From the IMG/VR virus record IMGVR_UViG_3300003321_000392, positions 1 through 43,378 of that record: a stretch of DNA of 43,378 nucleotides; one strand, given 5' to 3'. Numbering within the stretch: the first letter of the stretch is position 1; every line of letters starts with the position of its first letter. The position numbers and the translations under genes are program-made. Below are positions 2,877 to 43,378 of this stretch, one piece after another. The notes under the pieces are model-generated. The model made no database searches, had not been told where the DNA came from, and saw only the letters and a list, made by a program, of their open reading frames with translations. Origin of the DNA: a virus.

Positions 2877-3281
2877 GTGGAAGCTTTAGTCAACTTGATG
2901 TGGCCGACGAACGCCGGCATGTGGCTCGGGTATGGAGTCGTCGCGCTGAGTCTGCTCTCTATGCTTGGAGGCACGATGGCAAGCGGAGGAATCGTCAACT
3001 TCATCAACGCCGCGGCGCGCGCGTTGTCCGGCAAACAGCAGACGAGCGTCTCGGCCACTGGTCAAGCGCTGAGCCAGGACGACCAAGCGACGCTCGACGA
3101 CATCCACGCGATGCAGCGCCTCGAGGCGAGAGCCAACCAACTCAACTGCGACGAGATGCGAGCCGCTGTCGCCACGATCAAGGACCACTTCTTCCACGTT
3201 CACAAGCCCGAACTGGCGCAGGCTAGTCCGCCCGCCGGGCCGACCGTCCCCACGAACATTCCGCCGCCGGCGCAAGGATGA
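2877..3281 (+). CDS. Membrane protein, 134 aa, holin-like candidate
   Basis: GTG 2877 has GGAG eight bases upstream and lies 25 bp after the structured RNA. Residues 12-40 form one long or two short hydrophobic segments (MWLGYGVVALSLLSML and ASGGIVNFINAAARAL). A soluble, charged helical domain (residues 55-110) and a Pro-rich tail follow. Size and topology fit a holin or other phage inner-membrane protein, but no family signature is visible. It overlaps the next gene by ATGA. Confidence 0.5.
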   Translation: MEALVNLMWPTNAGMWLGYGVVALSLLSMLGGTMASGGIVNFINAAARALSGKQQTSVSATGQALSQDDQATLDDIHAMQRLEARANQLNCDEMRAAVATIKDHFFHVHKPELAQASPPAGPTVPTNIPPPAQG

Positions 3282-23818: not shown

Positions 23819-24465
23819 GACGACCAGACGGCACGCACATTCCGGCAGAGGCGTGGGCAGAGCTGCTGCCTCGCGCGTGCTCGACGATCGACCCATGCGT
23901 CGTCTTGAGGCCATCCATACCGCTGGGACCACGCACCGTCGCAGTGATCGGAACGTATCGAAGTGGAACGTCATTCGTTGCCGAGATTCTGATGCAGCTC
24001 GGCGTTCACATGGGCGACGCGTTCGTGGAGACAGTACCGCGCGCCGACTATGAGTGTTACGAAGACGCAGAGATGCATGACGCTCTCAAAGACGTGATGA
24101 GCCGCAACAAGCATCACGCACAGTGCAATGAGTGGAGATACGTCCAGCAAGTGATCTCAGAGCATGACGCCAAGCACGACGTATGGGGCTTCAAATATCC
24201 AGGCAGTGTGTTCGTGATAGACCGACTGCTGGGAATGTTGCGGAACCCACATTTGATCGTCGTCGTTCGCGACCCGATCGCCACTTGGCAGAGTGACTGG
24301 GCGCACGGCGGACAGATGGCGTGGCCCGTGGTTCGCAATCACATGGCGTGCGTGCTGGACATGATCGAGAAGCCGCGAGCCCCGACGCTGGCCATCAGCT
24401 ACGAGCGCGCCAAGGACCAGAAGAGCGCCGTCGCAGATGCAATAAAATCTTTCTTGAAAGTATAA
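23815..24465 (+). CDS. Sulfotransferase-like protein
   Basis: ATG 23815 overlaps the previous stop (ATGA), giving 216 residues. The 5'-phosphosulfate loop is visible as VAVIGTYRSGTSFVAEIL near residues 42-59, with the family R-S-G-T-S signature. The 3'-phosphate motif VVVRDPIATWQSDW lies near 149-162. Such enzymes move sulfate from PAPS to hydroxyls of sugars or proteins. It sits between two glycosyltransferase-like paralogs, so the acceptor may be a glycan. The stop codon overlaps the late-type TATAAT of the next gene. Confidence 0.78.
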   Translation: MRRPDGTHIPAEAWAELLPRACSTIDPCVVLRPSIPLGPRTVAVIGTYRSGTSFVAEILMQLGVHMGDAFVETVPRADYECYEDAEMHDALKDVMSRNKHHAQCNEWRYVQQVISEHDAKHDVWGFKYPGSVFVIDRLLGMLRNPHLIVVVRDPIATWQSDWAHGGQMAWPVVRNHMACVLDMIEKPRAPTLAISYERAKDQKSAVADAIKSFLKV

Positions 24466-24473: not shown

Positions 24474-25232
24474 GTGACTCGGGACCTCATATATCACATC
24501 TGCCCGCTGCGCAGCAACGACCTGTGGCTGCGCAACGTCGAGCAGCTCCTCGCGCGCATCGAGGTGTTCAACGGGCGCCGACTGGTCGCCATCGCCGTCG
24601 GCTCGAACGACTTGCTGCATGACGTCGACCGAGTCAAGCGCGAGCTGAAGGGCCACGGCATCGACTATATTCTGGTGCGCAACGATCGCAACCTACGCGA
24701 GGTCGCGTCGTTCCGGCCCTTGCTGGACGTCGTCGGCGGCGACCCGAACAAGGACCGCGCCGTCTTCTACGCGCACACCAAGGGCAACTCCACGTACGAC
24801 AACGTGGAGGGCGCGACGTACTGGCGCAACGTGATGTATCACGAGCTGCTGGACAAGTGGCAGCGATGTGTCGAGCTGATTCAAGAGGGCTACGCGTTCG
24901 TCGGCACGCACCAGATGATATGGGGCGCGACGCAGAAGTGCCCGTACCCGAGCCGCCTGGCGCACGGACAGTGGATGTTCGCCGGCACGTTCTGGTGGTT
25001 CAGCGCCGCTCGCGTATTCAGTCATCCTCGATGGCGAATCGTTCCGCAGGACCGCTACGGCGCCGAGGCGTGGCCGAGCGGGCTGTTCAATCCCGAGGAG
25101 TGCAAGTCCGTGTGGCAGCCCATCGCTCCGGACAAGCTGTACGGTCGAGACCCGTATGACCCGGAGCTATACGCCAGGATGGGCGCGTGCATCGCCGACT
25201 GCGAACTCAAACACCCGAGCTATCAGATATGA
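24474..25232 (+). CDS. Paralog of the glycosyltransferase-like domain in gene 22760
   Basis: GTG 24474 gives 252 residues aligned over their length with residues 110-350 of the upstream paralog. Shared landmarks are LIYHxCPLRxND, AVFYAHTKGNSTYDN, MYHELLDKWQRC, and FAGTFWWFS, then DRYGAEAWPSG. The N-terminal zinc module is absent. Neither copy has a clear DxD motif, so the sugar-transfer assignment is a family inference. The pair probably arose by duplication with a sulfotransferase between the copies. Confidence 0.6.
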   Translation: MTRDLIYHICPLRSNDLWLRNVEQLLARIEVFNGRRLVAIAVGSNDLLHDVDRVKRELKGHGIDYILVRNDRNLREVASFRPLLDVVGGDPNKDRAVFYAHTKGNSTYDNVEGATYWRNVMYHELLDKWQRCVELIQEGYAFVGTHQMIWGATQKCPYPSRLAHGQWMFAGTFWWFSAARVFSHPRWRIVPQDRYGAEAWPSGLFNPEECKSVWQPIAPDKLYGRDPYDPELYARMGACIADCELKHPSYQI

Positions 25233-26287
25233 GAATCTTGATCACAGGATGCGCCGGACACGTAGGATCAAAACTCGTCGAGTGGATTCTCCGCGAAGAG
25301 CCCAGCGTCGAGCACGTCGTCGGCGTCGATGACTTGTCGTGTGGATACCTCGAGACGGCGGTCAAGCTCGTCGAGTCGAGCCATGGTCGGTTCTGGTTCA
25401 AGCAGTGCGACGCCGGCGACCAGCGCGTCGTCAACGATCACGGGCCGTTTGACGCGGTGTTCCACCTCGCCGCGTACGCCGCCGAGTGCATGAGCGCGTT
25501 CTGTCGCCGGTACAACTACCAGAACAACCTCGTCTCGACCGCCGGGCTCGTCAGCAACTTGATCGACGCCGGATTCAGAGGCAGGCTGGTCTTCACGTCG
25601 AGCATGGCGGCGTACGGCGATGCGCGAGGTTCATCGCCGCCGTTCAGCGAATCGATGCACTGCTCGCCTAAGGACCCATACGGCGTCGCCAAGCTGGCCT
25701 GCGAGCGAGACATCGCGATCGCCGGAGAGCAGCACGGACTCGACTGGTGCGTCCTGCGCCCTCACAACATCTACGGCCCGGGTCAGAGCCTCTGGCAGAA
25801 GTATCGCAACGTCATTGGATTATGGATGCGCGCCGTGCTCGAAAACAAGCCGATCACGATCTTCGGCGACGGCGAGCAGAAGCGCGCGTTCAGCTACGTC
25901 GACGACGTCGTGCCGTGCATCTGGCGCGCCGCGACGTACGATTGCGCGAGCGGTCACGTCATCAATCTGGGCGGGCGCGAGCCGGTCACCATCAACGACC
26001 TGTACGACATCCTGTGCGCCGTGGTGGGGCGCGACGTCGCCGTCGATCGGCAGCCGGCGCGACACGAGGTGAAGCTCGCGTACTGCACGACGCGCCACAG
26101 CGAGGAGCTGCTCGAGTATCGCGAGGCGACGACGCTCGTGGACGGCGTCAAGCGCATGTGGACTTGGGCGCAGGACGCGTGGGAGCGCTACCCAAATCGT
26201 GTTAACATTACGGCGCGGCCGACGACCGAGGACCTAGACACAAGGGTGAAGATGCCGGCTAAATGGCTGGCGGACTATGTCGACTAG
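25229..26287 (+). CDS. NAD-dependent sugar epimerase/dehydratase
   Basis: ATG 25229 is in an ATGA overlap; the product has 352 residues. An extended short-chain dehydrogenase is clear from the Rossmann motif TGCAGHVG (GxxGxxG at 7-13), HLAAYAAE, the catalytic Tyr151-x3-Lys155 in DPYGVAKLACE, and RPHNIYGPGQ, then FGDGEQKRAFSYVDDV. Members act on UDP-, GDP- or dTDP-sugars. It likely supplies a modified nucleotide sugar for the neighbouring transferases. The gene ends just before the first early-type promoter. Confidence 0.88.
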   Translation: MRILITGCAGHVGSKLVEWILREEPSVEHVVGVDDLSCGYLETAVKLVESSHGRFWFKQCDAGDQRVVNDHGPFDAVFHLAAYAAECMSAFCRRYNYQNNLVSTAGLVSNLIDAGFRGRLVFTSSMAAYGDARGSSPPFSESMHCSPKDPYGVAKLACERDIAIAGEQHGLDWCVLRPHNIYGPGQSLWQKYRNVIGLWMRAVLENKPITIFGDGEQKRAFSYVDDVVPCIWRAATYDCASGHVINLGGREPVTINDLYDILCAVVGRDVAVDRQPARHEVKLAYCTTRHSEELLEYREATTLVDGVKRMWTWAQDAWERYPNRVNITARPTTEDLDTRVKMPAKWLADYVD

Positions 26288-26391: not shown

Positions 26392-27066
26392 ATGAAAGAG
26401 TTCGGACTTCAAATCGATGCCGACTATTATAACCAGTCGGACGCGATCAAAGAGACGCAAGAGCTCGTTGCGGAGTTCTGTCGCGTCAACACAATTCCTG
26501 AGCCTCTCATTCTCGAGAGCAATCGCAGCGCGCGCTGGGTCCGCTTCGGATTCTATAAAGCGTCTAATCACGCTGGACGCGGCGATAATTGGCACGGTGC
26601 GCTCTACTATAATCCGCGCAAATGTCGCAAGCCAGTTAAGACACCAGGATTTGCTTGGACGTATACCGGCTATAAGGCTGATCTAACGGCACCCGGCGTT
26701 ATTGCTCACGAGATGGGACATCACGTCTGGGAGTGCCAATGCCGATCAACTAACGGACGTCATTGTAAATCACTAGAAGCGCAGCTCGCTGCTGCGTGGC
26801 AGAACGAAACGCAAGGCGAAAAGCCGACGACCAGCTACGGCGCGACTCGCGTCGAAGAAGACTTTGCTGAGTCGTTCAAGCTATTTCTGCTGAATCCTGA
26901 TTTGCTCGATCGCGGCGCGACGCTGCGTCATTCATTCTTCGTTGACCAGCTTAAATTGCAGCCAGTCGTTCATTGGACGTTCGACGAAGTTCTGGCATTA
27001 GCGCATCCTCGATTGATCGCAGCGGCCGCTCGATGGGCCGGCTGCGACATGGAGGCAGTGCGATGA
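26392..27066 (+). CDS. HExxH zinc metallopeptidase-like protein
   Basis: ATG 26392 was chosen because it follows the promoter leader. The 224-residue product has VIAHEMGHHVWE with HEMGH at residues 106-110, and a downstream acidic EEDFAESF that could give the third zinc ligand as in gluzincins. There is no signal peptide. Base composition is clearly lower in GC than in flanking genes, with codons such as TAT and GAT common. That suggests a recently acquired early gene, possibly acting on a host regulator or defence protein. Confidence 0.7.
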   Translation: MKEFGLQIDADYYNQSDAIKETQELVAEFCRVNTIPEPLILESNRSARWVRFGFYKASNHAGRGDNWHGALYYNPRKCRKPVKTPGFAWTYTGYKADLTAPGVIAHEMGHHVWECQCRSTNGRHCKSLEAQLAAAWQNETQGEKPTTSYGATRVEEDFAESFKLFLLNPDLLDRGATLRHSFFVDQLKLQPVVHWTFDEVLALAHPRLIAAAARWAGCDMEAVR

Positions 27067-29066
27067 GAGCGCTCTCCGACGCGACCGCAGGAATGCTCAA
27101 GCCGCTCAATCTGTCCAGCAGGGACAAGATCGTCATCGACGTCGACAAGGACCTCAAGCACTTTGTCGTGCGCATCACGACGAGCGACGAAGGCGAATAC
27201 GTTCGCTCGTACCCGTCCACCGCGGCGACTCGCGCGTGGCTCGGCCGAGTACCGGAGCGAAAAGAACTGAAGGACCGACCGAACACGTGGATGCTCGCGG
27301 CGACCGACTACACGGCTGAGATCATTCGCGCCGTGTGGCCGGCGGAGCAGATCGAGTGGAAGTCGAGCGAGGCCGAGACGCTGTTCGACTATCTGCTGCT
27401 CAGCACGACGCAGCAGGACATGAACGCCGAGGCCTACGGCAAGTTCAAGGAGTCCGGCGAGTTGCCGGACTCGCCGCTCGAGTTCAGCAGCGAGCACCCG
27501 CTCGCGCCTTACCAGCGATGCGCCGGCGCGATCGCGCTGCGCAGCGAGGGATACGGCCTGTTCAAGGAGCAGGGCACCGGCAAGACGCCGGTCGCGATAT
27601 CCGTCGTGTGCACCGCGGCGTCAACGCGCGACTGGCGGCAGCCGTACCGAGTGCTGGTCGTCGCGCCGAAGAACGTTCGCCGCAACTGGGTGCGGGAGTT
27701 CGAGCGATTCGCAACGCAACCCGGCAAGGTCGAGGTCATCAAGGGCGGCAAGATCGATCGCATGGCACTGCTGATCGAGACCATCGCGCCAGAGCAGGAC
27801 TGCAAGTACTCGGTCTGCATCATGAGCTACGAGGCCATGACGCGCGACATCGAGTTCTTGACCAGCATCGAGTGGGACCTCGTGATGCTCGACGAAGGCC
27901 ACTACATCAAGTGGCCCGAGACGCAGCGAGCGAAGGCTGCGTTCAAGCTGCGCGACGCGGCGCGAAAGCGCATGGTGCTCACCGGCACGCCGGTCTGCAA
28001 CTCGCCGCTGGACCTCTACTCACTCTTCGAGTTCATGGGCGAGGGATGGTCCGGTTTCAAGCGCTGGGAGAATTTCCGACAGTTCTACGGTGTGTTCAAG
28101 GACGTCAACGACGGCACGACGCACCAGAAGCTCGTCGCGGTCCAGAACCTGCCGTTCATGAAGGAGCGGCTCGCGCGTCTCAGCTTCATCATTCGCAAGG
28201 ACGAGGCGCTGCCCGACCTACCAGACAAAGTATACGACACCGACGACGTCCAGATGACCAAGGCGCAGGCCGACGCGTACGAGCGCGTGGCGAACGACTT
28301 GCTGGTGAAGATCGAGAACGAGCTTGACTCGACGCAGAACAAGTCGATGTCGGTGAACAACATCCTGACGCAGCTCCTGCGACTCGCTCAGATCACCTGC
28401 GGCTACGTCACCTGGGACCCGGTGTTCGACTTGAACACGCTGGAGGAAGTCCGACCGAAGTCCATCGAGTGGTTCGGCGAGGACCCGAAGCTCGAGCGGC
28501 TCGTACAGATATTGAAGGGACACGGCGAGCCGGGCGACGACGACTATGCGACGCCGAAGACCGACAAGCAGAAGACGATTATCTGGTCCTGCTTCGTGCC
28601 GTGCATCAAGCGCATCAGCGAGCGACTCACCGCCGAGGGAATCGACCACGTAACGTTCTACGGCGGCACGAGCGAAGCTGATAGAATAGAAGCCGAGCGT
28701 CGCTTCAACGAGGACCAGAACTGTCGCGTGCTGATCGGCAACCCGGCAGCCGGCGGCACCGGCCTGAACCTGCTCGGCTATCCGCCGCACGCCGGCGAGA
28801 CGGCCGAGACAAACTGCGATCACGTCATCTACTACGCGCAGGACTGGTCGTACGTCAAGCGCGCGCAGAGCGAGGACCGATGCCACCGGCGCGGCACTCG
28901 ATCGAACGTGCGCGTGACCGACCTCGTCGTGCCGGACACGATCGACGAAGAGATTCGAGTCCGAGTGCTCAAGAAGAAGATGGTCGCGCTGGAGATCGCG
29001 GACATTCGCGAGATTCTGTCGGCCGTCGTTCATGGTCTGAAGGTAAAGAAGGAGAGCGATGAATGA
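27063..29066 (+). CDS. SNF2-type DEAD/DEAH helicase
   Basis: ATG 27063 overlaps the previous stop, giving 667 residues. Motif I is EQGTGKTPVAI near residue 170, motif II VMLDEGHYIKW near 275, and motif III LTGTPVCNSPLDLYSLFEFM near 307. Motif V is AAGGTGLNLLGY near 562, and motif VI appears in RAQSEDRCHRRG. The order is that of SNF2/superfamily 2 translocases found in many phage replication modules. It probably works in replication or recombination of phage DNA. Confidence 0.9.
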   Translation: MRALSDATAGMLKPLNLSSRDKIVIDVDKDLKHFVVRITTSDEGEYVRSYPSTAATRAWLGRVPERKELKDRPNTWMLAATDYTAEIIRAVWPAEQIEWKSSEAETLFDYLLLSTTQQDMNAEAYGKFKESGELPDSPLEFSSEHPLAPYQRCAGAIALRSEGYGLFKEQGTGKTPVAISVVCTAASTRDWRQPYRVLVVAPKNVRRNWVREFERFATQPGKVEVIKGGKIDRMALLIETIAPEQDCKYSVCIMSYEAMTRDIEFLTSIEWDLVMLDEGHYIKWPETQRAKAAFKLRDAARKRMVLTGTPVCNSPLDLYSLFEFMGEGWSGFKRWENFRQFYGVFKDVNDGTTHQKLVAVQNLPFMKERLARLSFIIRKDEALPDLPDKVYDTDDVQMTKAQADAYERVANDLLVKIENELDSTQNKSMSVNNILTQLLRLAQITCGYVTWDPVFDLNTLEEVRPKSIEWFGEDPKLERLVQILKGHGEPGDDDYATPKTDKQKTIIWSCFVPCIKRISERLTAEGIDHVTFYGGTSEADRIEAERRFNEDQNCRVLIGNPAAGGTGLNLLGYPPHAGETAETNCDHVIYYAQDWSYVKRAQSEDRCHRRGTRSNVRVTDLVVPDTIDEEIRVRVLKKKMVALEIADIREILSAVVHGLKVKKESDE

Positions 29067-31277: not shown

Positions 31278-34115
31278 ATGGCTGTGCCCGCGGTATCGGT
31301 GCTCGCTGAGTTAGATCGCTACCAGATAGCGTACGACTGGGCGGGCGACGACGAAGTGAAGGTAAAGTGCCCGTTCCACGACGACAGCGTCGCGTCGTGC
31401 AACGTCAGCGTGTCGAAGCGGCTCTTCATGTGCCACGCCGGCGGGTGCGGCAAGAAGGGCGACATCATCACGCTGCTCGCGAAGGTGATCGGTCACGCAC
31501 GGGCGGTCGTCCTCGAGGAGCTCGGGCAGCGCTATGACCTAGACGACGTCAAGATCGTCGAGCCGGACGTAGTCGATCGCTGGCACGCGGACATCTGGAG
31601 CGCCGGGCCGCTCCTGTCCGAGCTGTACAAGCGGGCCGTCATCGACGACGACATCAAGAAATACAAACTCGGCGTCGATCACGGTCGCGTCACCATCCCG
31701 ATCGACAACGAGCGACACGACTGGGTCAACGTCCGTAAGTACCTTCCGGGCGCGCCGGGCAACGAGAAAATGAAGAACCAGCGCGGCCGCGGGTCGGCGC
31801 GGTGGTTCCCGATCGAGCAGCTCAGATTTCCGGCCATCGTGCTGTGCGGCGGCGAGCTGAAGTCGATCGTGGCCGCTAGGCAGCTCAATCCACACGGCGT
31901 GGGCGCGATGTGGGCGACGCAGGGCGAGAAGCTGCTGCCGCCGAAGCTGCTCGCGCAGCTCAAGGGCAAATCGGTGGCGTTCTGCCTGGACGTCGACGCG
32001 GCGGGCCGACAGGCCACCGACGAGAACGCTCGCGCGCTGAAGTCGATCGCCAGCGAGATACTCGACGTCAGGCTACCGCTGGACCTCGAGAAGTTCCCGA
32101 AGGGAGACATCAACGACTTCGTCGCCAGCGGCGGCGACATGTGGGAGCTGTACCAGCAAGCCGAGCCATGGCAGGACTCACGCGCCGACAAGCTGGCCGA
32201 GACCGAGCCGGAAGTGATTCACCTGTCGGCGTCGGCCAACGCGCGATACGCCGGCAAGCGCATCGCCGTCACGGCGATCACCAGCGCGATGGACACCGCG
32301 CCGTATAGCGTGCCCAAGGACGTCGTCGTGCACTGTGATCGGTCGCAGACGTTCTGCGCGGCGTGCCCGGTCTTCCCGACCGCCGACGGGAAGTTCGAAG
32401 TCTCGCCGGAGTCGCCCGGCGTACTGGAGTGCATCCAGGCGACGCGGCGCGGCGTACACGAATCGCTGATCGGCGCGCTCGGCATACCGCGAGTCTGTCG
32501 AGTATGCGACTTCGAGGTCGAGACGTATCACAACTGCGAGGACGTCCGACTGACGCCGCAGATCGACATCACGGACCGAACGGCGGACCAGCGAGTGCAG
32601 CCGGCCATCTGCGTCGGCGAGGGCCTCGAGCTGAACGAGCCGTACAAGATGGTCGGTCGGATGTGGCCGCACCCGCAGACGCAGCAGGCCACGCTGCTCA
32701 TCTCGAAGTACGAGCCGACGCGAGACGCGCTGTCCGAGTACGAGCCGACCACCGAGCAGCTCGCCACGCTGGACGTATTCAAGCCGGACGAATGGACTCA
32801 AGATGGAATAGAGAGACGCTTGAACGCTCTGTATTCCGACCTCGAGCTGAACGTCACGCGAATCTACCAGCGCCGCGACCTGCACATGGCGATCGACTTG
32901 GCGTATCACTCACCGCTGCTCATCACGTTCGAGGGCGACATCGTCAAGGGATGGACCGAGGTGCTCGTCGTCGGCGACTCGGCGCAGGGTAAGTCGGAGG
33001 CGGCCCTGCGCATGATGCAGCACTATGGCCTAGGGGAGCGCATCGAATGCAAGAATGCGTCTGTAGCTGGACTCCTCGGCGGGTTGAAGCAATCAGGGTC
33101 GAGGTGGATGGTGGAATGGGGCTTCATACCCAAGCACGACAGGCGCTTAGTGATACTGGAGGAGATCAAGGGGACGAGCACGGAGGTGATCGGAAAGTTG
33201 ACAGATATGCGGAGTTCAGGCGTAGCCGAGCTGAGCAAGATCGAGAAGATGCGAACGCACGCCAGGACTCGCGCGGTGTGGATAAGCAACCCGCGAGCCG
33301 AGGGTCGATCGCTGGCGTCCTATGGGTACGGCATCGAGGCGGCGAGGGAGTTGATGGGAAGCCTCGAGGACCTACGCCGATTCGACCTGGTGTTGCTGCT
33401 CGCCGCGAGCGAAGTCGACGCAGCCGAGATCAATCGACTGCACGCCGCGCGGAACGGTCACCACTGCGTACACGCGCCGGACCTGTGCCGCGCCCTGGTG
33501 CTCTGGGCGTGGACCCGAGCACCGGAGCAGTGCTGCTTCGATAAGCCAGTCGCCAAGCTGTGTCTCAGCGAGGCTACGCGACTGAGCGACCTGTTCAGCG
33601 ACAGCATCCCGGTGGTCGATCGAGGCAGCGCTCGGTTCAAGATCGCTCGACTGGCGGCGTCGCTTGCCTGCCGCACGTTCAGCGCGAGCGAGGACCGAAA
33701 GTCGATCGTCGTGCGAGAGTGCCACGTCGAGTACGCCAGCAAGCTGCTCGAGCGAATATACAGCAAGCCGGCGGCAGCGTACCTCGAGTACACCAAGGCG
33801 CAGCGAGCCAGCGAGGAGCTCATCGACCCGGACTCGATCACTCGCACCATATCGCTGCTGCCGTTCCCCTACGAATTCGCGGAAGCCGTGCTGAAGGTCG
33901 ATCGAGTCGACATGCAGGACCTCATCGACTGGTGCGGCGCAGAGCGAATGGAGGCCGCGCGCATCATGTCGCTGCTCGTGCGCAAGCAAGCCGTCACGCG
34001 AGACGGCGGCGGCTATCGCAAGACCCCGGCGTTCGTCAAGTTCCTGCGGGACGTCATCGAGACGAAGGGCTTCGAGGGTCGTCCCACTCACATTCCTATA
34101 GAGGGAGAGTTCTGA
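31278..34115 (+). CDS. Primase-helicase: CHC2/TOPRIM primase fused to an MCM-like AAA+ helicase
   Basis: The 945-residue protein has three parts. Residues 1-60 are a CHC2-like zinc finger (Cys31, His34, Cys52, Cys57). Residues about 185-260 are a TOPRIM domain with CGGELK and the LDVDAAG acidic pair. The middle (about 350-480) is cysteine-rich with an OB-like ELNEPYKMVGRM block, as in MCM N-domains. The AAA+ core has Walker A GDSAQGKS (Lys572), Walker B RLVILEEI (628-629), sensor-1 WISNPR (Asn671) and an SRF-like arginine finger in LRRFDLVL (Arg701). A winged-helix-like end follows. It should unwind and prime phage DNA. The start has little Shine-Dalgarno sequence but fits the leader. Confidence 0.8.
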   Translation: MAVPAVSVLAELDRYQIAYDWAGDDEVKVKCPFHDDSVASCNVSVSKRLFMCHAGGCGKKGDIITLLAKVIGHARAVVLEELGQRYDLDDVKIVEPDVVDRWHADIWSAGPLLSELYKRAVIDDDIKKYKLGVDHGRVTIPIDNERHDWVNVRKYLPGAPGNEKMKNQRGRGSARWFPIEQLRFPAIVLCGGELKSIVAARQLNPHGVGAMWATQGEKLLPPKLLAQLKGKSVAFCLDVDAAGRQATDENARALKSIASEILDVRLPLDLEKFPKGDINDFVASGGDMWELYQQAEPWQDSRADKLAETEPEVIHLSASANARYAGKRIAVTAITSAMDTAPYSVPKDVVVHCDRSQTFCAACPVFPTADGKFEVSPESPGVLECIQATRRGVHESLIGALGIPRVCRVCDFEVETYHNCEDVRLTPQIDITDRTADQRVQPAICVGEGLELNEPYKMVGRMWPHPQTQQATLLISKYEPTRDALSEYEPTTEQLATLDVFKPDEWTQDGIERRLNALYSDLELNVTRIYQRRDLHMAIDLAYHSPLLITFEGDIVKGWTEVLVVGDSAQGKSEAALRMMQHYGLGERIECKNASVAGLLGGLKQSGSRWMVEWGFIPKHDRRLVILEEIKGTSTEVIGKLTDMRSSGVAELSKIEKMRTHARTRAVWISNPRAEGRSLASYGYGIEAARELMGSLEDLRRFDLVLLLAASEVDAAEINRLHAARNGHHCVHAPDLCRALVLWAWTRAPEQCCFDKPVAKLCLSEATRLSDLFSDSIPVVDRGSARFKIARLAASLACRTFSASEDRKSIVVRECHVEYASKLLERIYSKPAAAYLEYTKAQRASEELIDPDSITRTISLLPFPYEFAEAVLKVDRVDMQDLIDWCGAERMEAARIMSLLVRKQAVTRDGGGYRKTPAFVKFLRDVIETKGFEGRPTHIPIEGEF

Positions 34116-34117
34116 TT

Positions 34118-34699
34118 ATGACCACCATATCGCAAGCACAGCAGATGGTTCACCAGTTCCATGAGCACTGCAAGCTACTCACCAAGGCACAGCTCACGCG
34201 CGAGAACAGTGGCGGCATGAACAGCATGCTCTACGAGACGCACGCGGCGTTGCATCGCCAGTCGATGCAGCTCCAGGAGTGGGTCGGACACGATCGAGGT
34301 CTTCGCGCGCACCTCCTGACCGAGGAGCTGGCGGAGGTCGTTGAAGCGCTGATGAAGGCCGACGAGAAGCAACTGCTCGATGGTCTCGCCGATCTACTGT
34401 ACGTCGTGCTCGGCACAGCCGCGATCTACGATCTCCCGCTCGAGGCCGCGTTCGTCGAGGTGCACCGATCGAACATGACCAAGGAGAAGCAGCCGGACGA
34501 CCCGCACGCGCAGCGGCTGCGCAGCAAGGGTCCGAACTATCGACCGCCGAACATCGAGCGCGTACTGACGAACTATCGTAGCTGGCAGCGGGAGCACGTC
34601 TTCGCGCCGGACGATCTATACTCGCCGTACTGCGAGTGCGGCAGGACGCAGAACGACTCCATTCACATCACACGTAGCATGGAAGACTCTGGACAATGA
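34118..34699 (+). CDS. MazG-like all-alpha NTP pyrophosphohydrolase
   Basis: GGGAGAG lies before ATG 34118, three bases after the primase stop. The 193-residue protein has LLTEELAEVVEALMKADEKQLLDGLADLLYVVLG near residues 67-102, the EExxE...ExxD-like (here DGLAD) helices of MazG, HisE and dUTPase/dCTPase enzymes. VHRSNMTK follows, as in that superfamily. The C-terminus has a short Cys/His group (CECGRTQNDSIHITRS). It would hydrolyse a dNTP, which suits emptying a canonical dCTP or dUTP pool for the genes that follow. ATATCGCA occurs within its first codons (34127-34134). Confidence 0.7.
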   Translation: MTTISQAQQMVHQFHEHCKLLTKAQLTRENSGGMNSMLYETHAALHRQSMQLQEWVGHDRGLRAHLLTEELAEVVEALMKADEKQLLDGLADLLYVVLGTAAIYDLPLEAAFVEVHRSNMTKEKQPDDPHAQRLRSKGPNYRPPNIERVLTNYRSWQREHVFAPDDLYSPYCECGRTQNDSIHITRSMEDSGQ

Positions 34700-35952
34700 G
34701 CGACTTGACCGCCGTAGGCATTCACGTGTTCGCGGGCGGATTCACGCGCGGCGTGCTGGACGCCGGGTGGACCGTGCCGGTGCAGCTCGAGAAGCATGAC
34801 TTTGGCCTGGAGACGACCGCGGTCATGAACGACGTGCCGAGCATCAACGGCGCGAACTGGCCTAAGGTCCAGGCGCGCGTGGCGTTCGGCAACCCACGCT
34901 GCACCGCGTTCTCGACCATCACGTCGGGCGATCGCTACGTGGAGGGCAACACGCACGGCGCGTGGGCCAAGCAGACATGCGACATCCACGAACTGTGTCA
35001 GTACGCCGCCGGGCAGTACGACTTCATCATCTGGGAGTCAGTGCAGCAGGCGTACAAGGCCAGCGGTCGCGAGCTCGTCGATCACTTGATCAAGGAGCAC
35101 TTCGCCGACAAGCACTACCGCGTCGCGCACCTGTTCATCAACGCGGCGACGTTCGGCAACTGCCAGCAGCGCAAGCGCTACTTCTTCGTGGCGTACCGCG
35201 ACTGCTATCGATTCAACGTCGAGCCGCCCGCGATAACCGCGTACTATCCAGTGCTGTGGGACGTCATCAAGGAGACGCGGCACGTCGATGGTCGAGAGTC
35301 GCGACTGCGAGCAGGCGAGTACGACGCCGACTGCTACACGAACCTCACCGAGGACGAGTGGGCCGTAGTGCCGCACCTACCCAACGGATGGTCGCTCCAG
35401 CAGATGGCGCAGTACGACTACGACAACTTGCCGCCGAAGTTCAAGCGAGTATGGGACGATCGCATCAGCGATTTACCGTTCTCACTGCACGGCATCGTGC
35501 GCCTGAACTGGCTGCGACCGTGTCCGACGCTGCACTCGAGCGCCGGGCGATTCCTGCACCCGATCAAGAATAGACCGCTGACGGTCGGCGAGCTGGCGAC
35601 GGTCATGGGATGGCCTCGCATCCCGGTCGGCGATCGGCCAGTCGCGCAGATCGCGAAGGGCATCGTGCCGGCGATCGGCGCGTGGCTCATGAAGCAAGTC
35701 GAGCTGTCGATGGCGAATCACTGGGGCGAGGACGACTGGGAGTCGAGCTTCTGCGATAACTCGCAGGAGTGGGTGGGGCGCGACACGACCGGACAGCTCG
35801 AGAAGACGATCGACATGACCAAGTACGTAGGCAAGCTATTCGACAAGGACCGATACAATGACGAAGCGCTACGAGGAAATCGACTCGATGTGGCTATCGC
35901 TGCTCGCCGACTTAAGGAACAGCGGAAAGAAGCAAAGCTCGCGCAATGGTGA
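34696..35952 (+). CDS. C5-cytosine DNA methyltransferase-like protein with divergent catalytic loop
   Basis: ATG 34696 is in an ATGA overlap. The 418 residues keep the C5-MTase motif order: motif I VFAGGFTRGVLDAGW (11-25), motif IV GNPRCTAFS with Cys69, motif VI as WESVQQ (Glu114), motif VIII NCQQRKRYFFVA (155-166) and motif X TVGELATVMGWP. In standard enzymes motif IV is PCQ and motif VI is ENV; here they read RCT and ESV. The nucleophile and glutamate remain, so activity is plausible but may be altered. The gene overlaps the TS-like gene by 95 bp, which suggests tight coupling. Confidence 0.75.
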   Translation: MSDLTAVGIHVFAGGFTRGVLDAGWTVPVQLEKHDFGLETTAVMNDVPSINGANWPKVQARVAFGNPRCTAFSTITSGDRYVEGNTHGAWAKQTCDIHELCQYAAGQYDFIIWESVQQAYKASGRELVDHLIKEHFADKHYRVAHLFINAATFGNCQQRKRYFFVAYRDCYRFNVEPPAITAYYPVLWDVIKETRHVDGRESRLRAGEYDADCYTNLTEDEWAVVPHLPNGWSLQQMAQYDYDNLPPKFKRVWDDRISDLPFSLHGIVRLNWLRPCPTLHSSAGRFLHPIKNRPLTVGELATVMGWPRIPVGDRPVAQIAKGIVPAIGAWLMKQVELSMANHWGEDDWESSFCDNSQEWVGRDTTGQLEKTIDMTKYVGKLFDKDRYNDEALRGNRLDVAIAARRLKEQRKEAKLAQW

Positions 35953-36868
35953 CACGCGGCAGATCATCGGATGGTCGGGCTGCCTCGAGGATCCGCGGCG
36001 TAACTTCATCGTCAACGAGCGCCGCGCGGTCGACCCGAGCTACGCCTGCGCCGAGCTGCTGTGGTACCTAAGTCGATCGGACGACATCACCATGCTCAAG
36101 GCGTACGCCAACCAGTACGATCGCTTCGCCGAGCCAGGCACGACGCAGGCGTTCGGCGCGTACGGCAAGCGCATCGCGGAGAACGCCGGCATCGATCAAC
36201 TGTGGTACGCCGTGAACAAGCTGATAAATAAGCCGGACACTCGCCAGTGCGTCATCACGCTGTGGAGGCCGAGCGACTTACTGGAGGAAGACCGCCGCGA
36301 CTTGCCGTGCACCGTCTGCTTGCAGTTCATCGTCGAGAACAAGCGGCTTCACATGTGCACGTACATGAGGTCGAACGACGCGTGGCTCGGGTTCCCGTAC
36401 GACGTCTTCTGCTTCACCTGCTTGCAGATGCTCGTCGCCGGCACGATCGGTATCCAGCTCGGGACATACACGCACTTCGTCGGCAACATGCACCTATACG
36501 AGAAGAACGCCGCCGCGACGCGCGAGGCTTCGCTCGAGCGAAGCCTCGCGACGCCGGCGCAAGAATGGATGCCTTATGGCAGCACGCTGTACCACGCCAA
36601 GGACGCAGTGACGCTCGAGCACCTCGTGCGCAACGGATACGGCGACGAGCAGTTCTGCGAAGAGTACTACGCCAGCAAGCTCGGCGGCGAAATGAGCCTA
36701 CTCTCGGACGTCGTTCGCTGCTGTAACGCGAGACACGACTGGGTCGACTGGGACCAGAGAATCGTTTCACCCTCCTTACGCAAAGGACTCGATAATGTTG
36801 ATAATCGAAGGCGCCGATCTAGTCGGCAAGACGACGCTGGCGAAGGCGCTGACAAAGCAGCTCAATGA
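35858..36868 (+). CDS. Thymidylate-synthase-like enzyme, predicted dCMP-specific (hydroxy)methylase
   Basis: AAGGA lies about eight bases before ATG 35858. The TS fold is shown by SCAELLWYLS-like YACAELLWYLSRSDD, the nucleophile motif DLPCTVCLQF with Cys151, MRSNDAWLGFPYD (170-182), and FVGNMHLYEKN. Thymidylate synthases have PCH and Asn in LPFN; here they are PCT and Asp182. T4 dCMP hydroxymethylase has the same Asp swap and the same CT and MRSND residues, so dCMP is the likely substrate, giving 5-hydroxymethyl- or 5-methyl-dCMP. The last 35 residues overlap the kinase gene and are low-complexity run-on. A 30-bp palindrome lies inside the gene. Confidence 0.78.
   Translation: MTKRYEEIDSMWLSLLADLRNSGKKQSSRNGDTRQIIGWSGCLEDPRRNFIVNERRAVDPSYACAELLWYLSRSDDITMLKAYANQYDRFAEPGTTQAFGAYGKRIAENAGIDQLWYAVNKLINKPDTRQCVITLWRPSDLLEEDRRDLPCTVCLQFIVENKRLHMCTYMRSNDAWLGFPYDVFCFTCLQMLVAGTIGIQLGTYTHFVGNMHLYEKNAAATREASLERSLATPAQEWMPYGSTLYHAKDAVTLEHLVRNGYGDEQFCEEYYASKLGGEMSLLSDVVRCCNARHDWVDWDQRIVSPSLRKGLDNVDNRRRRSSRQDDAGEGADKAAQ
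36521..36550 (+). repeat. Perfect 30-bp palindrome inside the TS-like gene
   Basis: The arm CGCGAGGCTTCGCTC (36521-36535) is followed immediately by its exact reverse complement (36536-36550). It encodes about ten residues rich in Arg, Ser and Leu in the C-terminal third of the enzyme, in frame. It can form a 30-nt snap-back in single strands or a cruciform in duplex DNA. Confidence 0.85.
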
Positions 36869-37358
36869 ACTCGGGTGGCCGCACGTCTATCAGCATCTCA
36901 GCAGGCTGCCGACATGCTGGCGCGAGAAGACGGTCGGCAACTACTCGAGGCTGATGAACGCGTACGCGGTGCGCGATCGCTTTCACATGAGCGAGCCGCT
37001 CTACGCGGCGGCTCGCGGCGAGGAGCCGATGCTGTCGCCCGGACAGTATCGCTCCGTGGACGAAGAGGTGAAGTCGCACGGCGGCTATATCATCGTCGTC
37101 ACGGCCGACCCGGAGCTCATCGAGCGACGCTACGCGGAGCACGCGGCTCGCGAGATGTACTCGCTGGACAAAGTGCTCGAGGTCAACGAGGGATTCGTCG
37201 CCATGGCCAATGGTGGATGGGACAACTACGTGAATCCGCTCATGGACCTTCACGTTCACTGCACGCAGGCCGAGCAGTGGCCGGCGCTGCCGCAGTTGCG
37301 TGCCTACACCGCGCGCCTCGCCGCTAACTTCCCGTACCCAGGAGCTCGAGCAGCATGA
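36795..37358 (+). CDS. Deoxynucleoside monophosphate kinase (thymidylate-kinase-like)
   Basis: AAAGGA precedes ATG 36795. The 187-residue P-loop kinase has IIEGADLVGKTTLAKAL (Walker A at 6-14) and VRDRFHMSEPLY, the DR motif that binds the monophosphate. TADPELIERRYAEHAAREMY resembles a lid region with arginines. The substrate is probably the dNMP made by the preceding TS-like enzyme. It overlaps that gene by 74 bp. Confidence 0.78.
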   Translation: MLIIEGADLVGKTTLAKALTKQLNELGWPHVYQHLSRLPTCWREKTVGNYSRLMNAYAVRDRFHMSEPLYAAARGEEPMLSPGQYRSVDEEVKSHGGYIIVVTADPELIERRYAEHAAREMYSLDKVLEVNEGFVAMANGGWDNYVNPLMDLHVHCTQAEQWPALPQLRAYTARLAANFPYPGARAA

Positions 37359-37705
37359 AGAGACCGACAATGGAGCGAATCTGGACCGCCGTGACCCGCG
37401 CGGTCCGAGAGCACAAGCTGAACCCGCGATGGACGGGTATCGGTCACATGCTCGACGTGCTCGACGACGAGGAGGTCCTGACGTGGATTTGCGTCACGAT
37501 GCACCAGCGAGACATCACTCGATCGTGCTTCATCGCGGCGTTCTTCGAGTACATCGAGATGCCATCCATTGCTGGGCTCGCGCGCGACGAATACGCCAAA
37601 CACGACACTAGGAGAATCAAAGATGCTCGCCGTGATAGTCGCCGAAGCGCTCGTAATCGTCGGTCTCGTCGCGTCGCTCGTCGTCGCGCGACGGATGTGG
37701 ACTGA
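37355..37705 (+). CDS. Hypothetical protein, 116 aa
   Basis: ATG 37355 overlaps the kinase stop. The first 80 residues are helical and have WTGIGHMLDVLDDEEVLTWICVTM and RSCFIAAFFEYIEM. The remaining residues, from about 85, are Arg-rich and lie over the start of the next gene, so part of the C-terminus may have no function. No family is recognised. Confidence 0.45.
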   Translation: MKRPTMERIWTAVTRAVREHKLNPRWTGIGHMLDVLDDEEVLTWICVTMHQRDITRSCFIAAFFEYIEMPSIAGLARDEYAKHDTRRIKDARRDSRRSARNRRSRRVARRRATDVD

Positions 37706-37916
37706 GGAACATACCCGACTCGTCGAGGCCGTGTACTGGGCGCTGCGATCGCAGGGCATCAGCGGGTACGAGGACCATCACGCCATCCAGGACGTGAGGA
37801 ACAACTTGGGATGCGGCTACCTAGCCGCCGAGTCCATCGTGCTCGAGATCATGCTATCGGAGCAGGATCTCCCGCGTCCCGTCATCACCAAGACAGACAT
37901 AGGACCGCTATGCTAG
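37623..37916 (+). CDS. N-terminally anchored membrane protein, 97 aa
   Basis: AGGAGA lies just upstream of ATG 37623, which was preferred over ATG 37569 for this reason. Residues 1-21 (LAVIVAEALVIVGLVASLVVARR) form a membrane anchor. The rest is a small soluble domain (RLVEAVYWALRSQGISGYEDH). The end overlaps the polymerase start by 7 bp. The function is unknown. Confidence 0.5.
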   Translation: MLAVIVAEALVIVGLVASLVVARRMWTEEHTRLVEAVYWALRSQGISGYEDHHAIQDVRNNLGCGYLAAESIVLEIMLSEQDLPRPVITKTDIGPLC

Positions 37917-39979
37917 AGCTGTGCAACGGCGGGCTCCTGGTGCAGAGCACCGACGAACTCCCGCGACTCGATTGGTCTCTGATCTTCAAGGACTACGAGA
38001 CTACGTCCTTCGACTGGTACAAGGACGCGCTGAACGTCTGGCGCGACTGCTGGGCGCTTGGCGTCGCGGTGTGCGACGCGCGCAGCAAGGCCTACTATAT
38101 CCCGCTGCGTCACCACGCGAAAATCGACCCATACCACAACCTGGACGTCGACGCGGTGATCGCGTGGCTCGCCGACGGCATGTCGCGATGCCGGCGATGG
38201 GTGAACCACAACGTCAAGTACGACGCCCACGTCGAATACAACGACTTAGGCGTCGACTCGCCGAAGTGCGAGCTGGTCTGTACGGTCACACACGCCAAGA
38301 TCATCGACAGCGATCGACAGTTCCGCGGCGGATACGGACTCGACGCGCTGTCGCTGGCGTGGCTCGGCGAAGACATCTCGGCGTTCGAGAAGGAGATCAA
38401 GCGCTATCTCGGGCGCGACGGACAGGACTACGGATTCATCCCGATCTTGCCGATGGCGACGTACGCCTGCCAAGACGTCCTGACGAACCGTCGCTTGTAT
38501 AAGTACATCGAGCAGCAGCGACCGAAGGCGTGCGTCGGAGTGGCCGACGTCGAGACGAAGCTGACGCGGCGACTCGTCGAGATGGAGCGCGCCGGGCTGT
38601 GCGTCAACCCGACCGAGCTGCAACTGCGCGAGGTGATGGTGATCTCGCGCATGCTCGAATGCGAGACGGAGCTGCACGAGCTGATCGGACGCACGATCAA
38701 CCCGACGAGCACCGACGACGTGTACGACGTGCTCGTCAATCAGTATGGCCTGCCGGTGCTGCACTGGACCGAGGAGGACGAGGACGGCAACCCAGCCGGC
38801 AATCCGAGCTTCGACAAAGAGGGTATGAAGAAGTACCTCGCGTACCCGCTCGCGCCTCGGCGCGTGGTCGAGCTGATCGGCGAGTTCAGGAAGCTCAGCA
38901 CGCATCGCAGCCTGTTCTTGGAGAAGTACCAGAGCCTCGCCACCGCCAGCGAGTCGGCGCACGGCACCGAGTGGTTCCTCCACGGCAGCTACAACCAGTG
39001 CCTGCGCACCGGGCGCATGGGGTGTCGCGAGCCCAACGCGCAGCAGCTCGACAAGAAGACGCAGGAGCTGATTCACCCGAGGCGCGGCAACGCGATCATG
39101 CGAGCAGACCAGTCGCAGATCGAGTTCCGCATCATCGCGCACTACATCAACGACTCGGACGTCATTCGCGCGTACAACGAGAACCCCGACACTGACTTCC
39201 ACGACTGGGTGGCGCAGGTCGCCGGCATGGCGCGCAGTCCGGCGAAGACGATGAACTTCATGATGGGCTACGGCGGCGGCAAGAAGAAGGCCGTGCGCAC
39301 GATGGCGGCAAACGCCGACGTGATCGGCAACTTGCTGGCGAAGGTCGAGGCGCTCGTCGAGGCCGGCACGATTCGTCGCGAGGACGCCAAGAAGGTCTTC
39401 GACGAGATGTGCAAGCAGCGCGGCGAACAGGTGTACGATGAGTATCACCGCACGCTGCCGACGCTCAAGTCGACGAGCCGGCGCGCCGCCGCGACGTGCG
39501 CCGAGCGAGGCTACGTCTTCAACGGCGCCGGGCGCCGGAGACACCTGCCGCAGCAACACGCGCACGTGGCGTTCAACTCACTCTGCCAGAGCTTCGCGGC
39601 CGACATCCAGAAGGAGCGGACCGTCGCGCTGTGCGACGCCATCGACGGCACGCCGATCTTCATGATCGCTAACGTGCACGACGACACCGTACTAGAGGGA
39701 CCGATCAAAGTGATGCGCGATCGCCGGACGCAGGTCGCCGTGGCGTGGATACTCGAGCACACCGCGTACGAGCTGCGAGTGCCGCTGCGAGTGTCGCTCG
39801 GCGTGAGCGAGCTGAACTGGCGCGAGGCCGGCAAGTCGGTGAAGGACGGCGGGACCGCTGGACCGATCATGTACACCGACGCCGAGCGCGAGTGGCTGCT
39901 GTCGACGCCGGCTGTCAGATTGTTCGACTGGCTCCGCGCGAGTGTTGACGATTTGGCTGTCAATATGACACGGCATTAA
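37910..39979 (+). CDS. DNA polymerase A family with 3'-5' exonuclease
   Basis: ATG 37910 was chosen because it overlaps the upstream stop and precedes the exonuclease motif closely. The 689-residue protein has exonuclease motifs DYETTSF (Asp28, Glu30), HNVKYDAH and YACQDVLTNR. Polymerase motif A is MRADQSQIEFRI (Asp400), motif B RSPAKTMNFMMGYGGG, and motif C NVHDDTV (Asp591-Asp592, where most A-family enzymes have VHDE). There is no 5'-3' nuclease domain. It is the phage replicative polymerase and would incorporate whatever nucleotide the upstream cassette makes. Confidence 0.93.
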   Translation: MLELCNGGLLVQSTDELPRLDWSLIFKDYETTSFDWYKDALNVWRDCWALGVAVCDARSKAYYIPLRHHAKIDPYHNLDVDAVIAWLADGMSRCRRWVNHNVKYDAHVEYNDLGVDSPKCELVCTVTHAKIIDSDRQFRGGYGLDALSLAWLGEDISAFEKEIKRYLGRDGQDYGFIPILPMATYACQDVLTNRRLYKYIEQQRPKACVGVADVETKLTRRLVEMERAGLCVNPTELQLREVMVISRMLECETELHELIGRTINPTSTDDVYDVLVNQYGLPVLHWTEEDEDGNPAGNPSFDKEGMKKYLAYPLAPRRVVELIGEFRKLSTHRSLFLEKYQSLATASESAHGTEWFLHGSYNQCLRTGRMGCREPNAQQLDKKTQELIHPRRGNAIMRADQSQIEFRIIAHYINDSDVIRAYNENPDTDFHDWVAQVAGMARSPAKTMNFMMGYGGGKKKAVRTMAANADVIGNLLAKVEALVEAGTIRREDAKKVFDEMCKQRGEQVYDEYHRTLPTLKSTSRRAAATCAERGYVFNGAGRRRHLPQQHAHVAFNSLCQSFAADIQKERTVALCDAIDGTPIFMIANVHDDTVLEGPIKVMRDRRTQVAVAWILEHTAYELRVPLRVSLGVSELNWREAGKSVKDGGTAGPIMYTDAEREWLLSTPAVRLFDWLRASVDDLAVNMTRH

Positions 39980-41839: not shown

Positions 41840-42175
41840 GTGGCGTACGAACCACTCCCGCGCGGAGAGCGCATGCGCGAGACGCAGGCCCTCATCGACG
41901 CGCAGGTCCAGCTCAAGCGGTACTACATCTCGTTCAACACTCCAGAGGTCCGCGATCGACAGCTAAAAGAGGCGGCGCGGCTGCGAGAGAACGCGGCCAA
42001 GATCGTCGCCCAGGCGGAGCGCATCGAGACGGCCTGCCGAGACTGGCTCGCCGGGTACGAGGCGGCCGACGCTCGACTGGCGGAGCTCCGCCGCGAGCTG
42101 ACGCTCATCGAGAACGAGGACAAGCTCGCGCGACTGCAAGACATCGCGCAGCAGATTGAGGAGCTCTCGGTATGA
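41840..42175 (+). CDS. Coiled-coil early protein, 111 aa
   Basis: GTG 41840 has GGAAGGA upstream. The in-frame ATG at 41762 was rejected because it overlaps the -10 box and would place the leader hairpin in the protein. The product is almost entirely helical with heptad character (LKEAARLRENAAKIVAQAERIE, LAELRRELTLIENEDKLARLQ). It overlaps the next gene by ATGA. The function is unknown. Confidence 0.6.
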   Translation: MAYEPLPRGERMRETQALIDAQVQLKRYYISFNTPEVRDRQLKEAARLRENAAKIVAQAERIETACRDWLAGYEAADARLAELRRELTLIENEDKLARLQDIAQQIEELSV

Positions 42176-42933
42176 CGACGCTCATCAGCAAACCGTACGT
42201 CATCCAATCGCTCGACGCCGAGGGTCAGCCTGAGTATCAGTTCGTCGCCCGAGAGGACGCCGGCTGGCGCTGGACCGACGACCTCGACGTCGCCGCCGGG
42301 TTCGGCAGCCGACTGGCGGCCGATCGATTCGCGGAGACTCACGCTATGAGACAATTCAAGATCGCGCGGCGCGACGCCGTCGCGATCAAGCCGAAGAAGT
42401 TCGAGGCACCGTTCGCCTTGGCTATCTCCTGCCCGCTGGAGGCCGTGCAGACTACTTTTGATTTGCACGAGGAGTACTGCCAGCGAGTCGAGGCGTGGCT
42501 CCAGCGCGCCGGCTGTCAGCCGGACTACAGCAAGGGACGACCCACGCCGTGCATGACCATCACGGCGCCGAAGTGGGCCGGGATGTACAGCAGCGACACG
42601 CATCACTGTCACTACCCGGCGGTCTACGCCATGCTCGCGCCCGAGAACGGTCCGGAGGCCTGGCGCACCATCGTCGCCCACGAGGTGGTACACGCCTATC
42701 AGCGCGCGTTCACTGGTCGAGGCGCCGGACACGGCCCGGACTTCTATGCTTTGATGAAGCACGCGGCGCGAGAGCCCGTGACCAGTCATACTCACGGCTA
42801 TTCGGTCAAAGAGGCGCGGCGGCTCAGCGAGAAACTACTCCCGTGGTGGGAGCTGACGCGCCAGCAGGGCCTGCTCGCATCACTTCCGCTTGAAGTGCTG
42901 ACGACCAAGACCAAGCGAAAGGGCATCAGGTGA
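42172..42933 (+). CDS. SprT-like zinc metalloprotease domain protein
   Basis: ATG 42172 overlaps the previous stop. The 253-residue protein has a central IVAHEVVHAYQRAF with HEVVH at residues 170-174 and a downstream GRGAGHGPDFYALM, the H-E-x2-H...GHGxxF arrangement of SprT/Spartan-like peptidases. Cellular Spartan proteins cut DNA-protein crosslinks. A phage member could clear proteins from replicating DNA, but the substrate here is not known. The N-terminal 90 residues are unassigned. Confidence 0.7.
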   Translation: MTTLISKPYVIQSLDAEGQPEYQFVAREDAGWRWTDDLDVAAGFGSRLAADRFAETHAMRQFKIARRDAVAIKPKKFEAPFALAISCPLEAVQTTFDLHEEYCQRVEAWLQRAGCQPDYSKGRPTPCMTITAPKWAGMYSSDTHHCHYPAVYAMLAPENGPEAWRTIVAHEVVHAYQRAFTGRGAGHGPDFYALMKHAAREPVTSHTHGYSVKEARRLSEKLLPWWELTRQQGLLASLPLEVLTTKTKRKGIR

Positions 42934-43196
42934 GCGTCCAAGATCAACTGCGCGAGGCCGAGGCGCTGCTAGAGGCAGTATTGCGTCTAGCAGCGCCGCG
43001 AGTCGATCACTCGCCGCTGGTCGAGGTCGCGCGCCGGCGCACTGAGCAGATCGCGTCGCTGCGCGAGCGATTCCCGGACCGCTACCCGATGGGATGCTTC
43101 CAGTATCGCGACGAGCACTGGCTCGAGAAGGAACACGCGAGTCCCGGACACGAAGACATGAAAGAACTACTCTCTATTCTTAAGGAATTATCATGA
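42930..43196 (+). CDS. Small early protein, 88 aa
   Basis: GTG 42930 is in a GTGA overlap. The product is helical at the start (LREAEALLEAVLRLAAP) and contains ERFPDRYPMGCFQYRDEHWLEKEH. A perfect 12-bp inverted repeat spans its codons 11-23. No family is recognised. Confidence 0.5.
   Translation: MSVQDQLREAEALLEAVLRLAAPRVDHSPLVEVARRRTEQIASLRERFPDRYPMGCFQYRDEHWLEKEHASPGHEDMKELLSILKELS
42962..42997 (+). repeat. 12-bp perfect inverted repeat near the start of gene 42930
   Basis: GGCGCTGCTAGA (42962-42973) and TCTAGCAGCGCC (42986-42997) are exact reverse complements with a 12-nt loop. In mRNA this would be a stable hairpin about 30 nt into the coding region. Confidence 0.75.
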
Positions 43197-43378
43197 AAAC
43201 CTACACATCCGACGAACTGAAAGCGGTGCTCGACGCGCATTGGAAGTGGTTGAAAGACGAGGAGGGTGGTAGCCGCGCCGTCCTCAGCCGCGCCGTCCTC
43301 AGCCGCGCCGTCCTCAGCCGCGCCGTCCTCAACCGCGCCGACCTCAGCCGCGCCGACCTCAGCGGTGCCGACCTCAGC
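43193..43378 (+). CDS. Pentapeptide-repeat protein, truncated by the window end
   Basis: ATG 43193 overlaps the previous stop (ATGA), and AAGGA lies upstream. The first 25 residues are a charged helix. From residue 27 the sequence is SRAVL repeated four times, then NRADL, SRADL and SGADL, matching the A(D/N)LxX rule of right-handed quadrilateral beta helices. Some such proteins mimic DNA and inhibit gyrase; others have no known role. The C-terminus is outside the window. Confidence 0.8.
   Translation, partial: MKTYTSDELKAVLDAHWKWLKDEEGGSRAVLSRAVLSRAVLSRAVLNRADLSRADLSGADLS
43271..43378 (+). repeat. Tandem 15-bp repeats encoding pentapeptides
   Basis: Four identical units AGCCGCGCCGTCCTC run from 43271 to 43330. 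Three diverged units (43331-43375) follow, with a partial unit at the edge. Identity of the first four at DNA level points to recent tandem duplication. Confidence 0.85.

Follow-up and report, generated by a model that had tools for sequence, protein, structure and literature searches.

A phage gene cassette predicted to supply 5-hydroxymethylcytosine includes a C5-methyltransferase-like protein with a motif X lysine

Why a phage would carry a divergent DNA cytosine-C5 methyltransferase (C5-MTase) gene within an apparent pathway for modified cytosine nucleotides is the question raised by IMG/VR virus record IMGVR_UViG_3300003321_000392, which was analyzed as a complete record (43,378 bp, 62% GC; hereafter the window). 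Four consecutive, overlapping genes on the plus strand encode a MazG-like NTP pyrophosphatase (34118..34699), a C5-MTase-like protein designated MT (34696..35952), a thymidylate synthase (TS)-fold enzyme (35858..36868), and a P-loop dNMP kinase-like protein (36795..37358). These genes were proposed in a first-pass annotation of the sequence. All four are real, with family or profile support well above chance, and their functional assignments hold, the substrates of the pyrophosphatase and the kinase being presumed. It is likely that the cassette makes and uses 5-hydroxymethyl-dCTP (hmdCTP), and that MT, which belongs to a class with lysine in motif X (the Lys-class), then modifies DNA containing 5-hydroxymethylcytosine (hmC).

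The TS-fold enzyme and its nucleotide-pool partners

Sequence and structure comparison identified the product of 35858..36868 as a TS-fold protein (PF00303, 1e-32) whose best match among solved structures in the PDB was the CMP hydroxymethylase MilA (2e-34). When aligned with the T4 dCMP hydroxymethylase gp42 (NC_000866), to which it is ~24% identical, the enzyme retained E66, Y102, R129, D148, C151, R171, S172, D174, D182, H212, and Y214. These include the catalytic cysteine (C151) and general-base glutamate (E66) of the TS fold, and the equivalents of T4 Cys148, Asp179, Asp145, Tyr96, Glu60, and Arg123 were all conserved. D182 lies at the position of T4 D179 and E. coli TS N177 and is Asp in all relatives. 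An Asp at this position selects cytosine over uracil, and S172 and R129 are residues of the deoxy type (PMC5175136); MilA shares the Asp but has Ala176 and Lys133 where the window enzyme has Ser172 and Arg129. D148, three residues ahead of Cys151, is equivalent to T4 Asp145, which activates water and has been proposed as a signature of hydroxymethylation, with Tyr96 as part of it (PMC6400193). Both Asp residues were conserved in 109 of 109 aligned rows, a set that includes T4 and counts some contigs twice, whereas E. coli ThyA, an outgroup sequence used solely as a TS yardstick, has Leu and Asn instead. Within the T4 Ser94-X-Tyr96 pair, the Tyr is retained (Y102), and almost every relative in this branch has Gly in place of the Ser. 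The extension after the last TS motif also differs in length, 122 aa in the window enzyme versus 28 in T4. A single-protein pattern scan with the window enzyme gave no viral relative; the alignments did.

The TS-like enzyme is thus best assigned, from its sequence, as a dCMP hydroxymethylase, and for this reason virion DNA very probably contains hmC, which is the best-supported prediction of the analysis. The dCMP-hydroxymethylase-like residues recognized in the first-pass annotation were borne out, since D182, D148, and Cys151 match the T4 signature, and its prediction of modified cytosine in virion DNA was upheld by the comparison. A pathway of this kind is already known from T4, in which gp42, the dCTPase gp56, and the dNMP kinase gp1 follow the same logic with the same class of TS-fold enzyme. 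The window differs in using a MazG-like pyrophosphatase in the place of gp56 and in having the Lys-class MT in addition.

The pyrophosphatase belongs to the MazG-like/PRA-PH all-alpha enzymes (PF01503, 4e-13; PF03819, 8e-7; phrog_671, 3e-24) and is a candidate dCTPase or dUTPase, for which dCTP specificity is presumed. Its metal-binding residues E69, E70, E73, D88, and D92 (EExxE...DxxxD) were invariant among 16 homologues, and its nearest solved structure was DR2231. In L007, the closest relative, a Nudix hydrolase (1833-2351) occupies the place of MazG, and the pyrophosphatase step therefore appears to be retained by unrelated means. TS and PF01503 pyrophosphohydrolase genes also adjoin on contigs shown to carry modified cytosine by MetaGPA (PMC8670742). 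Those phages share both families with the window; their partner is a carbamoyltransferase, whereas the partner here is the C5-MTase-like protein.

The kinase-like protein is of the TMPK superfamily and YorR-like (phrog_761, 4e-7), with a P-loop (GADLVGKTT) and a DRFHMSEPLY motif. By itself it scored under the Pfam TMPK cut-off. It matched YorR (2axp) at 1.6e-6 as a single sequence and at 1e-13 by profile, and yeast TMPK at 1e-5 by profile. Residues G6, G11, K12, T14, D61, R62, and Y70 were invariant among 22 homologues, and the enzyme is presumed to accept hmdCMP. Kinase homologues of other hydroxymethylase phages (L054 4979-6055, L065 4474-5382, and L097 2497-3387) have an extra C-terminal domain of ~150 residues, and in L007 an open reading frame (ORF) resembling an HNH endonuclease (4504-5019) is inserted between the TS and kinase genes.

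The Lys-class protein and its association with the hydroxymethylase

MT (PF00145, 3e-9; profile match to HaeIII MTase, 6e-20) was modeled with AlphaFold2 from 23 sequences (mean predicted local distance difference test score 89.7, predicted template modeling score 0.88). Foldseek placed the model nearest to the DNA C5-MTases MET1, HaeIII, DNMT1, and HhaI and to the carboxymethyltransferase 8yf3. The catalytic Cys69 (motif IV), Glu114 (motif VI), and Arg159/161 (motif VIII) are invariant, and motifs VIII and IX are separated by a target-recognition region of the usual size. MT deviates from the canonical PCQ/ENV/GN pattern in having NPRCT in motif IV, ESV in motif VI, and (A/V/G)KG in motif X, and across the Lys-class the Gln following the catalytic Cys is exchanged for Ser or Thr. 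By hidden Markov model profile alignment, K321 of motif X corresponds to HhaI Asn304, to the same Asn of HaeIII, and to SpCmoX Arg350. This residue was Lys in 20 of 20 distinct cassette MTs, which span 34 to 93% identity, and in about 87 of 89 MT rows overall; it was Asn in the 57 canonical C5-MTase control sequences that had the motif X column aligned. Two distant relatives on contigs with an Asp-type (D-type) TS, L033 and L049, have Gln in motif X and may represent a further variant of the pocket. No relative of MT was found in prokaryote genome contigs, and tblastn of the window MT against phage records gave nothing at 1e-5; queries from wider Lys-class members recovered phages of Gordonia, Micrococcus, and actinomycetes.

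The order primase - MazG - MT - TS - kinase - polymerase was kept in ~24 other IMG/VR contigs, with MT directly 5' of a D-type TS. In the window, MazG and MT overlap by 4 bp, MT and TS by 95 bp, and TS and the kinase by 74 bp. An assembly frameshift was considered as the source of the MT/TS overlap and rejected, because overlaps of 14-167 bp recur in most homologous cassettes; their recurrence suggests that translation of the two genes may be coupled. In a sister group (L037, L042, L045, L112, and L001), the cassette lacked MT at its usual place, and on the primase tree the MT label required just two changes (0 of 500 shuffles were as low). Two of these contigs, L045 and L001 (Manatee Spring phage ctIqW946, MW202657), have a Lys-class MT of a different branch located after the polymerase. 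Phage ctIqW946 is the closest annotated relative of the cassette, and it shares with the window the primase-helicase, NTP-PPase, 'pyrimidine hmase', kinase, and polymerase. Its MT, which has an ETG motif and lies 3' of the polymerase, is unlike that of the window in both respects.

The association extends beyond the cassette. A deeper scan for Lys-class relatives gave 80 loci. TS was present in 38 of 50 wider Lys-class contigs, often tens of kb distant from MT, and in 32 of the 35 that were at least 25 kb long. By comparison, it was found in 0 of 50 control contigs of at least 25 kb that carried canonical GPPCQGF-type C5-MTases and were drawn among the matches listed (Fisher p ~3e-20 for 32/35 versus 0/50, uncorrected for kinship). 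Both Asp residues were present in each of the 41 TS from Lys-class loci that were examined. The reverse search gave a concordant result: MT was present in 30 of 50 contigs chosen solely because they hold a TS of the hydroxymethylase type, with Lys in 20 of 20 inspected. A separate branch of NTP pyrophosphatases (PF08761) was represented in the vicinity of MT at 33 of 59 wider loci. Six cultured carriers were recovered, namely Gordonia phages Sixama, Phendrix, Forza, and GMA2, Micrococcus phage Kurnik, and Actinomycetia phage DSL-LC01, and each encodes a D-type TS, with a MazG/dUTPase gene in the vicinity of MT; Gordonia phage GodonK is also a cultured carrier. Mycobacteriophage Cueylyss has a canonical PCQ/ENV/GNSV enzyme and no TS. 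In DSL-LC01 (L346 2434-4245), the Lys-class MT adjoins a small class I S-adenosylmethionine (SAM)-dependent methyltransferase, with glycosyltransferase and tryptophan-halogenase genes nearby. These results indicated that the pairing with a divergent C5-MTase, pointed out in the first-pass annotation, is real, widespread, and non-random.

The recurrence of this link in unrelated phages suggests a second, undescribed step of DNA modification. The first-pass annotation had also regarded the combination as undescribed, and this claim stands in part. No description of a motif X Lys class of C5-MTase tied to dCMP hydroxymethylase was found in the literature searched, but the co-occurrence of TS and PF01503 had been published, in an article whose main text does not mention a C5-MTase-like partner (PMC8670742). 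Very different phages link the hmC pathway to an enzyme of methyltransferase descent whose cofactor pocket is recoded, and there is a real chance that the product of this enzyme is a new base.

Possible activity of MT and competing explanations

The proposed pathway would begin with conversion of dCTP to dCMP by the MazG-like enzyme, which would clear dCTP from the pool. After hydroxymethylation, the kinase would begin re-phosphorylation toward hmdCTP, and the adjacent polymerase would incorporate hmdCTP, with the result that hmC would account for much or all cytosine in virion DNA. The Lys-class MT would then act after replication on hmC-containing DNA. It would flip the base out, Cys69 would attack C6, and K321, whose pocket ordinarily looks onto the methyl group being transferred, would interact with either the 5-hydroxymethyl substituent or an altered donor, with a further, sequence-dependent modification as the outcome. 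A reaction between a C5-MTase and hmC has precedent, because M.MpeI binds hmC covalently and apparently strips off its hydroxymethyl group (PMC11347137). We infer from these comparisons both hmC in the virion and the action of MT on it. A more specific proposal, to which we give somewhat less than an even chance, is that the Lys-class is a large, undescribed phage family dedicated to hmC-DNA, in which covalent C6-Cys chemistry and the motif X Lys would serve to alkylate the 5-hydroxymethyl group or to substitute another group for it, yielding a new hypermodified cytosine without CmoA. If MT does act on hmC, it would add a new route to DNA hypermodification and might serve as a tool to write on or read hmC, and cultured carriers (GodonK, Forza, GMA2, and Kurnik) place the hypothesis within direct test.

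In phages whose DNA contains hmC, this base is usually capped with a sugar or another group. Known hmC cappers were considered as a common extra partner of the cassette and rejected: among the 28 related contigs, carbamoyltransferase was found in none, GT2 glycosyltransferase was sporadic and absent from the window, and a nucleotide-sugar epimerase was found in just 4. No beta- or alpha-glucosyltransferase was recognized within the window. A 454-residue protein (L151 1780-3141), which matched neither Pfam nor PHROG and may be a GT-B-like glycosyltransferase, was present near the Lys-class MT in 29 of 59 wider loci.

Several observations weigh against the action of MT on hmC-DNA made by this pathway. 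STELLO/RGP-type glycosyltransferases occurred near MT in 16 of 59 wider Lys-class loci, more commonly than in the cassette group, and since many wider carriers hold glycosyltransferase-like genes, MT need not be the last modifier. Four relatives (L037, L042, L046, and L112) have the hydroxymethylase and no detected MT, which indicates that MT is not essential to the pathway. The association counts were obtained with a Lys-class profile seeded with TS-linked members, the canonical control set came from the matches listed and was not randomly sampled, and contigs that are related do not count as independent. In the window TS-like enzyme, the T4-signature Ser94 is Gly. A dUTPase role for MazG is possible, because its nearest solved relative, DR2231, is regarded as dUTPase-like.

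The alternative that survives best, although we regard it as unlikely, is that MT is a CmoX-like carboxymethyltransferase that uses carboxy-SAM (Cx-SAM) from the host and either writes 5-carboxymethylcytosine or carboxymethylates the hydroxyl of hmC. SpCmoX Arg350, with which K321 aligns, binds the carboxylate of Cx-SAM, and it mirrors the N374K substitution by which M.MpeI was engineered for Cx-SAM (PMC12783734). CmoX, of the CmoX/CmoA/CmoY system, also resembles MT in its C5-MTase fold, in carrying a basic residue where HhaI has N304, and in the small amino acid (Ser or Thr in both) that follows the catalytic Cys. However, the Lys-class has Lys rather than Arg, NPRC or NPPC rather than SPPC, and a link to dCMP hydroxymethylase, an enzyme not described in CmoX phages. 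Strict membership in CmoX was rejected, as SPPC and Arg350 are lacking and CmoA is missing alongside. The published survey of 5,615 CmoX candidates required SPPC and Arg350 (PMC12783734), and the Lys-class consequently fell outside it. The Cx-SAM synthase CmoA was absent from 78 of 78 contigs (28 of the cassette group and 50 wider), although a host CmoA may exist, whereas 4,257 CmoA were found in the contigs of the surveyed CmoX. A Corynebacterium control genome, of the same order as Gordonia, was also without any CmoA match. The absence of CmoA from all 78 contigs suggests that MT is probably an hmC-directed enzyme and not a CmoX.

It is less probable again that MT is an ordinary sequence-specific C5-MTase that shields some sites through methylation of residual cytosine, with the hydroxymethylase as an incidental neighbor. 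The intact catalytic residues, the normal-sized target-recognition region, and the HaeIII/HhaI fold are consistent with such an enzyme. Yet canonical C5-MTases showed no comparable genome-wide association with dCMP hydroxymethylase, Lys for the motif X Asn and Ser or Thr for the post-Cys Gln are class-wide replacements, and substrate would be scarce if most cytosines were hmC.

Two further alternatives concern the TS-like enzyme. That it is an Xp12-type dCMP methylase, which would place 5-methylcytosine in virion DNA, appears improbable. Liu and Santi (1992) reportedly found that an Asp at the specificity position suffices to turn thymidylate synthase into a dCMP methylase, and this Asp alone would be compatible with methylation. 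Phage Xp12 DNA carries 100% 5-methylcytosine (PMC7653180). Hydroxymethylation is favored because the Asp at the N177 position is accompanied by the Asp three residues before the Cys; Asp148 and Y102 constitute the hydroxymethylation signature, and the Pfam TS match stops at 227/266, such that the water-shielding TS tail is not recognizable in the window enzyme. That MazG, the TS-like enzyme, and the kinase supply thymidine in the usual way (dUTP to dUMP to dTMP to dTDP) is hardly credible, for although the same families serve thymidylate metabolism and many phage genes are annotated as 'thymidylate synthase', D182 and D148 are unlike known dUMP methylases and common to all relatives.

Flanking genes and the remainder of the record

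The cassette is bordered on its left by a primase-helicase with a CHC2 zinc finger, Toprim, and an MCM-like P-loop (31278..34115, plus strand; PF01807, 7e-9; phrog_18685, 1e-77). This border is conserved, the gene lying 5' of MazG/MT in nearly all homologous contigs. The polymerase that the first-pass annotation placed next to the cassette was present downstream, but one or two small ORFs intervene. The first (37355..37705, plus strand) had no Pfam or PHROG family match and has a weak homologue in L007 (32% over 108 aa, E 5e-5); the second is a possible ORF at 37569-37916. The polymerase itself is a family A DNA polymerase with a 3'-5' exonuclease domain (37910..39979, plus strand; PF00476, 2e-38; PF01612, 4e-6; phrog_17, 1e-85). 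It has a DQSQIEFR motif, and its start is more likely at 37910 than at 37811.

The window is the genome of a tailed phage, as seen from its terminase large subunit (6746-8128) and major head protein (14488-15555). The replication block starts with an SNF2 helicase (26973-29066), and small Pam3-like proteins are encoded between it and the primase-helicase. The interval from the tail region to the SNF2 helicase holds a sulfotransferase-like ORF (23809-24465; PF13469, 2e-7) and an NAD-dependent nucleotide-sugar epimerase (25187-26287; PF01370, 3e-42). A long ORF (8494-10431) matched minor head protein, endolysin, and DarB-like antirestriction families in its C-terminal part (phrog_4660, phrog_938, and phrog_10089). 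An ORF with a lipid-desaturase domain (3278-3745; PF10520, 1e-13) is unusual in a phage. Toward the right end are a SprT-like metalloprotease ORF (42172-42933) and an ORF of pentapeptide-like repeats (SRAVLSRAVL...; 43193-43378) that continues past the end of the record.

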